In this document: positions 13,478 through 34,035 of the stretch, piece after piece
Layout: each line of letters begins with the position of its first letter
Position numbering within the stretch: position 1 is the first letter of the stretch
DNA from: Bacteroidota bacterium
GTDB taxonomy: Bacteria > Bacteroidota > Bacteroidia > Chitinophagales > JADIYW01
Reading direction: 5' to 3'
Assembly (NCBI GenBank): GCA_028288625.1
Contig: JAQBNI010000010.1
Span: 1-35,267 of the forward strand
Length of the DNA stretch: 35,267 nucleotides
Translations under genes and position numbers: made by a program
Notes under the pieces: generated by a model
The model's database searches: none
The model's input: only the letters and a program-made list of their open reading frames with translations
Told to the model about the DNA's origin: nothing

Positions 13478-13491
13478 TTGACTTAAATCAT
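13478..13491. promoter_or_regulatory. FNR-like box, 13/14 copy (TTGAC-TTAA-ATCAT)
   Basis: This sequence differs from the perfect box at 33386 only in the last base. It overlaps the stop codon (13488-13490) of the minus-strand acetyltransferase gene and no gene start lies nearby. It may be chance, or it may serve an unannotated transcript in the 345-bp gap. Confidence 0.3.
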
Positions 13492-16092: not shown

Positions 16093-16106
16093 TTGATTTA
16101 AGTCAA
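16093..16106. promoter_or_regulatory. FNR-like box (TTGAT-TTAA-GTCAA) before a lipoprotein gene
   Basis: This 14-mer is the exact reverse complement of the box at 33386-33399. It fits the FNR consensus TTGAT-N4-ATCAA with one change. It ends 33 bp before the ATG at 16140. A TTTG at 16092-16095 overlaps it and TATTTATA at 16114-16121 could be a poor -7 element. That would place the box over the -33 region, so repression or contact activation are both possible. Confidence 0.6.
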
Positions 16107-16139: not shown

Positions 16140-16868
16140 ATGAAAAGAATTCTCAAAACAGGTTCGTTGTTATTGTTTGCATGTATCATGATCTGTGTCA
16201 GTTCATGTAAGAAAAAATCTTCAACAACTCCTGCGGTCACTTATTTATTAAAATCTTTTATTCATGAGAAAGCCGGAGTAAAGGACACCACGGTTTATTC
16301 TTTTAATAACGATGGCAAGGTGATTGCCGCTGTAATGGGCACCAGCAATGTTATTTATACTTACTCAGGACATACAATTAACAGAACGCGTACACAACCA
16401 CCTTTTACTCCTTCCAGGGATTCTATTATCATAGGTTCTAACGGGTACATCAGTGAAGATTATCTTTTTCACGACGATGGAACGATCAGCACAAAAAATA
16501 TATATTCCTATAACAGTCAGAACCAGCTTTCACAACTTACTTCCACTGAATATCCTTCTATGGTGGTGACTATTACAACGGTGACAATGTCTAACGGTGA
16601 TCTTGTAGGTGAGACGTATGGCAGCAACACCGCTACTATAGACTATTATGATAAACCCGCTGCTACAGGTGACTACTGGTATGTTGCACAATTCACAAAT
16701 TATGGCTCATTCTATTATAAACCAAACCATTTAGTAAAGACCATTATTAATGGCGGTTCAACGAATAGTTTTGCTTATGAATTTGATTCGAATGGCAATG
16801 TTTCAAAACTGACCATTACGGAAGGAGCAAATATAGATGTCTACAATATGACATGGTTGGCTAATTAA
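16140..16868 (+). CDS. Secreted lipoprotein, possibly DUF4595-like
   Basis: The 242 residues have a signal peptide and lipobox ending in Cys23 (VSSC), followed by three lysines. The mature part is a chain of beta-hairpins with repeating Tyr-Asn/Asp-Gly pairs (VYSFNNDGKVIAAV, IYSYNSQNQLSQL, AYEFDSNGNVSKL). These resemble the RHS/YD-like strands of DUF4595-type Bacteroidota lipoproteins. Function is unknown. The start is the ATG 33 bp after a perfect FNR-like box, the only such box outside the crp region with a well-placed downstream gene. Its stop abuts the stop of the convergent serine hydrolase. Confidence 0.75.
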   Translation: MKRILKTGSLLLFACIMICVSSCKKKSSTTPAVTYLLKSFIHEKAGVKDTTVYSFNNDGKVIAAVMGTSNVIYTYSGHTINRTRTQPPFTPSRDSIIIGSNGYISEDYLFHDDGTISTKNIYSYNSQNQLSQLTSTEYPSMVVTITTVTMSNGDLVGETYGSNTATIDYYDKPAATGDYWYVAQFTNYGSFYYKPNHLVKTIINGGSTNSFAYEFDSNGNVSKLTITEGANIDVYNMTWLAN

Positions 16869-31500: not shown

Positions 31501-32706
31501 ATGAAGAATAAAGTAGTTTTAGCATTCAGCGGCGGATTGGATACTTCCTATTGCGCAAAATATCTGAAGGAAGAAAAAAACCTGGAGGTGTATGCTATTA
31601 CTGTAAACACAGGCGGTTTCACAGACGAAGATTTAAAAGCGATCGAAAAGCGCGCACATGAATTAGGTGTGAAAGGATTCATTATAAAAGATGTAATGAA
31701 TGAGTATTACACGCAATGTATCCGCTATCTTTTGTTCGGCAATGTTTTAAAAAATAATACCTATCCTCTTTCTGTTAGTGCTGAAAGAGTCTTCCAGGCA
31801 ATCGCAGTAGCGGAGTACGCAAAAGAGATAGGCGCATCTTTCATCGCGCATGGAAGTACCGGGGCAGGCAACGACCAGGTACGCTTTGATATGGTTTTTA
31901 ATATCGTGATGCCGGATGCAAAGATCATCACTCCTATACGCGATCAGAAATTATCACGCGAAGAAGAAATTGCCTACCTCGAAAAACATGGAATAAAAAC
32001 AGATGCAGCTAAAGCTGTATATTCAATCAACCAGGGTTTATGGGGAACGAGCGTTGGAGGAAAGGAAACATTAACATCGCGAAATACATTACCTGAAGAT
32101 GCATATCCATCGCCTTTAACAAAAAATGTACCGGAAGAAATATCTGTAACATTTAAAAACGGGGAGCCAGTTGCTTTAAACGGAAAACAATTTGAGCATC
32201 CTGCAAAATTAATTTCAGCACTCAACAAGATCGCTTCTGAATTTGCGATCGGAAGAGATATACACGTCGGAGATACCATTATTGGAATTAAAGGGCGTGT
32301 TGGATTTGAAGCGGCTGCACCTTTAATTCTTATCAAGGCACATCACTTGCTGGAAAAGCATACACTCACCAAGCAGCAATTATTCTGGAAAGATCAACTG
32401 GCAAATGTGTATGGAAGCAATCTTCATGAAGGATTATTTTACGAGCCATTGATGCGTGATCTCGAAGCATTTTTATCAAGTACACAAGAACATGTATCCG
32501 GAGATGTATTTATTAAACTAATGCCCTATCGTTTTGAACTTACAGGTATCGAATCTTCCTTCGATCTCATGAACAGCAAATTCGGCAGCTACGGTGAAAT
32601 GAACAATGCATGGACAGGGGAAGATGTAAAAGGATTTTCTAAAATATTATCGAACCAGGTAATGATCTGGAAGAAAATAAAAGAGGAAAATAAAAAGAAG
32701 GATTAA
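31501..32706 (+). CDS. argG: Argininosuccinate synthase
   Basis: This cytosolic enzyme joins citrulline and aspartate with ATP in the seventh step of arginine synthesis. The N-type ATP pyrophosphatase P-loop reads AFSGGLDTS (about residues 8-16). Family blocks GSTGAGNDQVRFD (about 118-130), which binds citrulline and aspartate, and SINQGLWGTSVGG (about 176-188) are present. The 401 residues match the usual length. It is the second gene of the acetyltransferase-argG unit, and no further arg gene follows. The stop overlaps that of the convergent Crp/Fnr gene in a shared TTAA at 32703-32706. Confidence 0.97.
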   Translation: MKNKVVLAFSGGLDTSYCAKYLKEEKNLEVYAITVNTGGFTDEDLKAIEKRAHELGVKGFIIKDVMNEYYTQCIRYLLFGNVLKNNTYPLSVSAERVFQAIAVAEYAKEIGASFIAHGSTGAGNDQVRFDMVFNIVMPDAKIITPIRDQKLSREEEIAYLEKHGIKTDAAKAVYSINQGLWGTSVGGKETLTSRNTLPEDAYPSPLTKNVPEEISVTFKNGEPVALNGKQFEHPAKLISALNKIASEFAIGRDIHVGDTIIGIKGRVGFEAAAPLILIKAHHLLEKHTLTKQQLFWKDQLANVYGSNLHEGLFYEPLMRDLEAFLSSTQEHVSGDVFIKLMPYRFELTGIESSFDLMNSKFGSYGEMNNAWTGEDVKGFSKILSNQVMIWKKIKEENKKKD

Positions 32707-33329
32707 ACTTTCGATTTGATCGTTTTATCATATTTAGAGCGTACCCTGCTTAAGGTTTCCGATGTCATCCCAAGATAATTTGCTATATACTTTAATGGTA
32801 TCCTGTTTGCGATATCGCCATAATCCTGCATAAACTGATGATATTTTTCGTCTGCCTGCAAAGACGCAAAAGTGTAGAAGCGGTTCACATAATTACTGTG
32901 AAGCAATTCCAGGTTAAGCCGGTAAAGGCGCTCTATATCATGCGATTTTTTACATAATGCGTTCAGATCTTTATAAGCAATTTTTAGTAATGCAAGATCC
33001 TCCAGCGCCTGGTAAATATGAGTGCCTGGCTTCTTTGTAATATGAGTGAAATTGCTTCCGAAAAAAGCGCCTTCTTTTTCAAAACCTTCTATGATGTCTT
33101 TATTATTCTTATAAAAAAATATTTTTATCACGCCGCTGTAAATAAAATAAAAATATTCTGCCACCTGTCCTTCATCTAAAATAATATCATTTTTTTTATA
33201 TGATACGAGTTCAAATAATTGTACAAGAGCATTTAAGTCTTCCTCATTAACATTCATCGTAGAACGTAATGTTTGCTTAAGAAATTGTTTTGCTTTGTTT
33301 TCTAAAATTTTGTCAATCTGTCGTGTCAT
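32703..33329 (-). CDS. Crp/Fnr-family transcription regulator (downstream paralog)
   Basis: The 208 residues begin MTRQIDKILENKAK. A cyclic-nucleotide-binding-like beta-roll (about 35-125, with YKKNDIILDEGQVAEYFYFIYSGVIKIFF) and a long dimer helix follow. The helix-turn-helix is NRIPLKYIANYLGMTSETLSRVRSK at the end (about 175-199). The recognition helix has the FNR-type Glu-x2-Ser-Arg. No N-terminal cysteine cluster is seen, so it is not an Fe-S oxygen sensor, and the wing after the recognition helix is missing, as is usual in Bacteroidota members. The frame stays open to 33371, but a -7 element at 33340-33347 supports the start at 33329. An FNR-like box lies 56 bp upstream of the ATG, suggesting autoregulation or control by the paralog. 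Confidence 0.92.
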   Translation of the reverse strand: MTRQIDKILENKAKQFLKQTLRSTMNVNEEDLNALVQLFELVSYKKNDIILDEGQVAEYFYFIYSGVIKIFFYKNNKDIIEGFEKEGAFFGSNFTHITKKPGTHIYQALEDLALLKIAYKDLNALCKKSHDIERLYRLNLELLHSNYVNRFYTFASLQADEKYHQFMQDYGDIANRIPLKYIANYLGMTSETLSRVRSKYDKTIKSKV

Positions 33330-33339
33330 CGGCTTGTTG

Positions 33340-33372
33340 CAAACATAACGATAAATGTTTATAACAAACAAA
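33340..33372 (-). promoter_or_regulatory. Promoter of the downstream Crp/Fnr gene (TTTG-N21-TATGTTTG)
   Basis: On the minus strand TTTG (33372-33369) and TATGTTTG (33347-33340) are 21 bp apart and both match the consensus. The element ends 10 bp before the ATG at 33329. It lies downstream of the FNR-like box, which would sit at about -57 from the expected transcription start. Confidence 0.65.
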
Positions 33373-33385
33373 AGAAGAAATTATA

Positions 33386-33399
33386 TTGACTTAAATCAA
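33386..33399. promoter_or_regulatory. FNR-like box (TTGAC-TTAA-ATCAA) between two Crp/Fnr genes
   Basis: It fits TTGAT-N4-ATCAA with one change and extends to a 16-mer with flanking A and T. It lies in the 46-bp gap after the upstream paralog and before the open frame of the downstream one. The regulators' recognition helices carry the residues that read TTGA in E. coli FNR. Its centre lies about 57 bp upstream of the expected transcription start, close to a class I activator position. Confidence 0.7.
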
Positions 33400-33417
33400 T
33401 TGCAGTTTTATTAATAT

Positions 33418-34035
33418 TCAACATTGCTTAACATCTTGTCTCGCCCTTATTCTGCTAAGGGTTTCAGAGGTTATTCCAAGATAATTCGCTACATACTTTA
33501 AAGGGATCCGGTTACAGAATGCTGAACAATGTTTTAAGAATAAACAATATTTTTCTTCTGCCTGCAATGATTTCAAATTGTGCACTCTTTCTATGTATCT
33601 CACGTAATGCTGTTCTAATATCTTTATGGAGGTAATAAGAATTTCCGGAGAAGTTTCAAACAACTTCATCAGATCCGTAAACTTTACTCTTAGCAGATCC
33701 ACATCTTCGATCGTTTCATAAACATCGCGGCTCCGGGTTTTTTTTATAAAGTCGTAAAGATTTCCAAAGAAAGTTCCTTCTTCTCCAAACCAGTCGATAA
33801 TATCATTTCCGGATTTGTGATAATAGACCACAATTAATCCATTAGAAAGAAAATACAAATAATCAGAATATTCACTCGCCTTAATGATCTTGTGATTTTT
33901 ACGATATTGAATAAATTCAAAAGCATCGGTAAATTTTTGCAGGGAGTCCGCAGAAATATTCCCAAACTTTGTCACCTCTTTTGCAAGAAATGCTTTGCAT
34001 TCAATTTCTTTTGCGATGTCAGGTTGCTTTATCAT
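33418..34035 (-). CDS. Crp/Fnr-family transcription regulator (upstream paralog)
   Basis: The 205 residues align along their length with the downstream paralog. An N-terminal helix is followed by a beta-roll (about 35-130, with YLYFLSNGLIVVYYHKSGNDIIDWFGEEGTFFG). The dimer helix contains SLQAEEKYCLFLKH, and the HTH is NRIPLKYVANYLGITSETLSRIRA. The FNR-type Glu-x2-Ser-Arg is intact. The only N-terminal cysteine (Cys13) rules out an FNR-type Fe-S cluster. The pair seems to be a local duplication in one orientation, with the FNR-like box retained only before the downstream copy. The ligand is unknown. Confidence 0.92.
   Translation of the reverse strand: MIKQPDIAKEIECKAFLAKEVTKFGNISADSLQKFTDAFEFIQYRKNHKIIKASEYSDYLYFLSNGLIVVYYHKSGNDIIDWFGEEGTFFGNLYDFIKKTRSRDVYETIEDVDLLRVKFTDLMKLFETSPEILITSIKILEQHYVRYIERVHNLKSLQAEEKYCLFLKHCSAFCNRIPLKYVANYLGITSETLSRIRARQDVKQC

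Follow-up and report, generated by a model that had tools for sequence, protein, structure and literature searches.

The FNR protein of E. coli carries a Glu-x2-Ser-Arg recognition helix and its box combines the TTGA half-site with a 4-base spacer; FNR proper has three N-terminal cysteines and a central one that hold [4Fe-4S]. For Crp/Fnr-type regulators, the available part of one published account (PMC1274295) links residues 180 and 181 (CRP numbering) to bases 3 and 6 in the operator. In that part, the HcpR1 regulators found in certain delta-proteobacteria, whose residue 180 is Ser or Pro, are assigned the site TTGACnnnnGTCAA, and HcpR1- and DNR-type regulators are described as being without the FNR cysteine motif. 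A different Crp/Fnr site had already been published for Bacteroides: as given in the same part of PMC1274295, the HcpR2 regulators of Bacteroides and Porphyromonas, likewise members of the Crp/Fnr family in Bacteroidota, have a palindromic site with a 4-base spacer, GTAACnnnnGTTAC, and Pro at 181, and HcpR2 of P. gingivalis has Gln at 181 and a differing site. A mapped TTGA-type operator in Bacteroidota was not found in a literature search over sources available in part; PMC13185528, considered as a precedent, was set aside as irrelevant, the accessible text having 'Fnr' in the title of a cited work and the letters as part of a primer sequence. For Crp/Fnr regulators the analysis presented here supplies a predicted operator together with candidate target genes, in bacteria taken to be Bacteroidota on the strength of their promoter boxes and distant relatives. 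When a genome collection was searched for relatives bearing names, 11 loci were obtained, none above 30% identity.

In the window (the whole stretch of 35,267 nucleotides that was analysed) the 14-mer TTGACTTAAATCAA, read directly from the sequence, occupies positions 33386-33399 of the plus strand. It is a palindrome, predicted to be an FNR-type operator, and falls between the stop codon of one Crp/Fnr paralog and the next paralog downstream, both encoded on the minus strand, just as the preliminary description had placed it; read toward the downstream regulator it is TTGATTTAAGTCAA. The TTGA half-site and the 4-base spacer are those of the E. coli FNR box, and the site is also similar to the HcpR1- and DNR-type operators, TTGACnnnnGTCAA and TTGATnnnnATCAA in the available part of PMC1274295. 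It differs from the HcpR2 site quoted there, being TTGAY-N4-RTCAA with Glu rather than Pro at 181 of the regulators.

The spacer between the paralogs had been put at 46 bp, a value that rests on a TTG start codon at 33371. This start is disfavoured: the N-termini of the array relatives align from the ATG at 33329 (MTRQ versus MTKQ in genome G006 and MTQR in G004), and a TAnnTTTG promoter box lies between the two candidate starts. The ATG at 33329 is therefore the likely start of the downstream regulator as judged from the sequence, and the gap would measure 88 bp (33330-33417) rather than 46. The box, TATGTTTG at 33340-33347 on the minus strand, is a perfect form of the Bacteroidota -7 element and the sole perfect TAnnTTTG between the site and the ATG. 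Since this box was mapped at -12 to -5 in Flavobacterium psychrophilum, according to the available part of PMC9723704, transcription would start at about 33335 and the site would be centred at about -57.5, which agrees with the distance of about 57 bp proposed earlier.

The downstream regulator (32703-33329, minus strand) has 208 residues and is of array type A, with the recognition helix E191-T-L-S-R195 at 32745-32759 on the minus strand; the upstream paralog (33418-34035, minus strand) has 205 residues, is 37% identical to it and carries its helix E-T-L-S-R at 33451-33465, also on the minus strand. The Glu-x2-Ser-Arg pattern ascribed to both proteins is thus present in each as ETLSR, like that of E. 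coli FNR. The N-terminal cyclic-nucleotide-binding-type domain PF00027 was above cut-off in both (1.8e-12 and 9.1e-8). The C-terminal Crp-type helix-turn-helix is weak by sequence, PF00325 reaching 16.2 bits against a cut-off of 21 in the downstream regulator only; the AlphaFold model of this protein (pLDDT 93.3) is matched over nearly its full length by CRP and FNR chains, Aliivibrio fischeri FNR (8qto) giving a TM score of 0.80. Both proteins belong to the Crp/Fnr superfamily on these domain criteria, with the helix-turn-helix assigned through the downstream model. The closest solved sequence, the cyclic-nucleotide-binding regulatory protein of Cytophaga hutchinsonii (PDB 3dn7, E 4e-17), has the same Crp/Fnr architecture; it differs in its recognition stretch, FTPEYLSEIR as against ETLSR, and the hit carries no operator.

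When the protein sequences were checked, the FNR-type N-terminal cysteine cluster was absent from both window regulators, the downstream one having a single Cys. In this they differ from E. coli FNR and agree with the HcpR1/DNR-type regulators as described in the available part of PMC1274295. Because the cluster is missing in both, the two proteins are, as far as their sequences tell, not FNR in the sensing sense, and the term 'FNR-like' used previously would be retained for the DNA code and given up for oxygen sensing. Nor do they follow the code of cAMP-CRP, having Ser rather than Arg at 180 and a TTGA rather than a TGTGA half-site. The helices of both contain Ser180-Glu181, and this pair agrees with the residue-to-base code in the part of PMC1274295 available, the Ser recalling the Ser or Pro of HcpR1; the proposed match between proteins and site was borne out to this extent. 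A difference from HcpR1 and DNR may lie in the targets, neither hcp nor denitrification genes having occurred among ten target proteins scanned here.

The significance of the site was assessed with a strict form, TTGAY-N4-RTCAA, for which patterns of altered spacer length (N3, N5 and others) or reversed patterns served as controls; genes were called by a simple ATG-type procedure that also accepted frames running in at the end of a stretch, with a minimum of 60 to 150 residues. By chance, 0.00055 strict sites would be expected in the 88-bp spacer. The possibility that the site is merely a chance AT-rich palindrome has some observations in its favour: the window as a whole holds two strict sites against 0.38 expected, a mild excess reached by 7 of 100 shuffles, and raw counts do not exceed the 3-base control, amounting over the eight genomes of the genus to 240 (N4), 284 (N3) and 134 (N5) and in the genome of the window itself to 37 (N4) and 50 (N3). 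The near-exact form TTGAYTTAARTCAA showed no genome-wide excess either, with 11 matches at one mismatch or fewer as against 12 for the reversed control, which counts against the operator reading. The raw whole-genome count was rejected as a test, being too blunt: N3 outnumbers N4, and genes contain 25 of the 27 N3 sites that were inspected.

A spacer-specific signal appears when intergenic DNA is considered. In the genome of the window 26 of 37 N4 sites are intergenic. The N5 sites number 16, of which 4 are intergenic (Fisher p 0.0056), and among the 27 N3 sites inspected out of 50 there are 2 (Fisher p 4.5e-7). Intergenic DNA made up about 13% of the sequence examined there, in stretches chosen round the sites rather than at random, and in these stretches it has 31% GC against 38% in coding DNA, a composition that would favour a chance palindrome. 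Genome G004 gave 17 of 25 N4 sites against 5 of 20 N5 sites examined (of 23; p 0.0067), and where N4 was counted alone the intergenic sites were 19 of 25 in G002 and 17 of 25 examined (of 42) in G006. The N4 excess is thus confined to intergenic DNA, with no excess over the 3-base spacer in raw counts; the check across the spacers of the genome that was proposed at the outset, run here with this slightly broader pattern, came out in favour of the operator. Enrichment between genes and before regulators that is specific to one spacer length, together with the return of sites at corresponding loci in more than one genome, strongly disfavours a chance origin, which is therefore very improbable. 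Outside the genus, the genomes G008, G009, G011 and G012 of the same family contain 48 to 76 strict matches and 8 to 16 reversed ones.

The enrichment before regulator genes was evident at two scales. Within 200 bp upstream of 44 Crp/Fnr-type genes of the genus there were 13 N4 sites, distributed over 12 genes, and none with spacers of 0-3 or 5-12 bases. Within 250 bp upstream of 67 such genes from 13 related genomes there were 19 N4 sites (17 genes) and a single site for all the other spacers (0-3, 5-12 bases) together; the Markov expectation for N4 was a mean of 0.2 with a maximum of 3 in 500 runs, the genomes compared being relatives and not independent samples. The strict site stood ahead of 17 of 49 regulators with Glu-181 against none of 18 without it (p 0.003). 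The comparison in relatives was less favourable on one side, since the part of the tree that holds the downstream regulator with its closest relatives (11 of 66 rows, one short fragment having been removed) has the strict site in three rows, the window included, and the syntenic pair of G006 has a form with one mismatch. The footprint is less convincing ahead of the downstream regulator.

Computation shows that the site is present, that the DNA between genes and ahead of regulators is enriched in such sites for one spacer length, that they recur at particular loci and that they fit the code. Positions 33386-33399 would very probably constitute a working FNR-type operator that is part of a wider regulon, and the downstream regulator is most likely auto- or cross-regulated through it, with binding inferred. 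The explanation that we consider probable as a whole is that a Glu-181 regulator of the Crp/Fnr superfamily binds the site as a dimer, reading TTGA in each half, and that from about -57.5 it acts on the TAnnTTTG promoter driving 32703-33329. Its use would be auto- or cross-regulation of this gene, probably by activation from a class I-type position, and the same operator code would serve further genes in the genus. The identity of the binder, which may be one of the window paralogs or another paralog with Glu-181, the direction of control and the signal are, like the binding, matters on which we can offer inferences.

The genome of the window encodes seven Glu-181 paralogs, the two window regulators and five others, and the operator might accordingly be real and yet be read mainly by one of the others (on contigs C92, C94 or C116), the gene then belonging to a wider regulon instead of a self-loop. 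Besides the number of candidates, such a reading could draw on a clade of regulators with the helix IETLSR or IENLSR, whose members have the site before or at their own start in all eight genomes that possess the clade, out of 13 searched; an ortholog was not found in the genome of the window, where the best match reached 36%. It could also draw on G001, in which strict matches fall to 7 for N4, equal to the 7 for N5 and fewer than the 17 of the reversed control, and in which an ortholog of the IETLSR or C92 type was not found, as if another clade ran the regulon. Against this, G001 still has sites before its array regulators although neither clade was found there, and G012 and G008, in which both were likewise not found, still have 51 and 48 matches. 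Control chiefly by another paralog is thus a possibility to be reckoned with, though not the one we favour, which remains binding by a Glu-181 dimer in auto- or cross-regulation.

Some further observations concern the same clade. Three of its genes, lacking an ATG start, in G002, G004 and G005, are outside the 67 genes counted above, and in G006 and G002 a gene for a class-III aminotransferase is divergent to the regulator of this clade. An ortholog of the IETLSR regulator was not found in the genome of the window, G012, G008 or G010, and strict matches there still number 32 to 51; the idea prompted by G001, that motif abundance is tied to the clade, was dropped in view of these genomes. G001 itself keeps two array-type regulators with sites despite its seven strict matches.

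The array-type genes group in a single clade of 27 tree rows (support 98/95), and Crp/Fnr regulators follow the gene of a 2-oxo-acid dehydrogenase E2 in all seven other genomes of the genus: there are runs of four in G004, G005 and G007, two in G002, one each on the contig examined in G001 and G003, and in G006 (contig C69) a tandem array of eight genes or gene pieces, including members of 172 and 114 residues. An E2 gene of this kind was not found in the genome of the window, the best match being 39% identical. In six of the seven genomes a strict site falls within the final codons of E2 (tail FDxxQ), the exception being G006, in which the site stands before the second array gene. Some of this conservation may be due to coding constraint; as a full explanation such constraint was rejected, since at least six of seven genomes would keep the site, once the encoded residues and the codon use of the region are allowed for, with p of about 0.013, a value that speaks against it and is only suggestive in view of small codon samples and related genomes. 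It is tempting, if speculative, to see here a tandem array of Crp/Fnr sensors (at least eight genes or pieces) that grows and shrinks by lineage and shares one operator code with a wider regulon; its control site would often lie in the last codons of E2, enzyme tail and switch co-evolving, and the whole would serve as a multi-sensor input whose members compete for a common set of sites, a picture to which we attach little confidence. Such arrays bear on how duplicated regulators with a near-identical recognition helix split one set of sites.

Strict sites recur at thirteen loci, each time in two or in three out of four genomes (that of the window, G002, G004 and G006), the loci being named from Pfam or by eye. 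Five recur in three genomes: those of the single-strand binding protein SSB, an SDR gene with divergent YceI, RecQ with divergent ManC, a coiled protein beginning MEFTQK, and an L,D-transpeptidase of the YkuD type. In two genomes each there are TetR with divergent GldC, a MarR-type gene, a Crp/Fnr paralog (on contig C92 of the genome of the window and in G006), the class-III aminotransferase divergent to a Crp/Fnr gene, and four unnamed loci. The arms of these sites are identical by construction, only strict sites having been collected; the middle bases mostly differ across genomes, SSB being identical in the genome of the window and G006. The genome of the window and G004 have four N4 loci in common (from 24 and 17 genes); for N5 there are none, a small control with only 3 and 6 genes. 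Set beside E. coli FNR, the named targets here include SSB, RecQ, ManC, YceI, GldC and the L,D-transpeptidase; a Pfam scan of ten target proteins, from 82 site-to-gene pairs, gave no respiratory enzymes and left three without a family.

A perfect TAnnTTTG box was found in 30 of 78 target upstream regions against 5.8 in shuffled ones (maximum 13), the shuffles preserving single-base content only. Activators are placed at about -41.5 in class II and at -57.5 to -77.5 in class I, and in the 30 boxed upstream regions the site is centred at -41.5 in two and at -57.5 to -77.5 in 13, among them that of the window; the remaining centres are spread between -25.5 and -126.5. These positions bear on whether the regulator might instead shut off its own promoter through the site. 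Repression would suit those common sites that are near or over the core promoter, such as that of SSB in the genome of the window and G006, where the box ends 14 bases past the site and the centre is at about -25.5, and also the several IETLSR regulators with a site at or near their own start. The window site, with its centre at about -57.5, is upstream of the core promoter, and the boxed sites centred at -41.5 or from -57.5 to -77.5 fall in zones used by activators, which makes repression unlikely here and is in keeping with the preferred reading of activation from a class I-type position.

Exact copies of TTGACTTAAATCAA in the 3.71-Mb assembly number two, at 33386 and 16093, both within the window. 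The second, at 16093-16106 on the plus strand, precedes by 33 bp the start of a gene (16140-16868) whose product is predicted, by eye, to be a lipoprotein and has no Pfam family. A copy with one mismatch, TTGACTTAAATCAT, at 13478-13491, overlaps the end of a GNAT-type gene, also named by eye. The three 14-mer-like copies (13478, 16093 and 33386) on one 35-kb contig looked clustered, and no longer repeat common to their flanks was seen by eye. The neighbours of the regulator pair in the window were recognized by eye as argG and a PIG-L-type gene.
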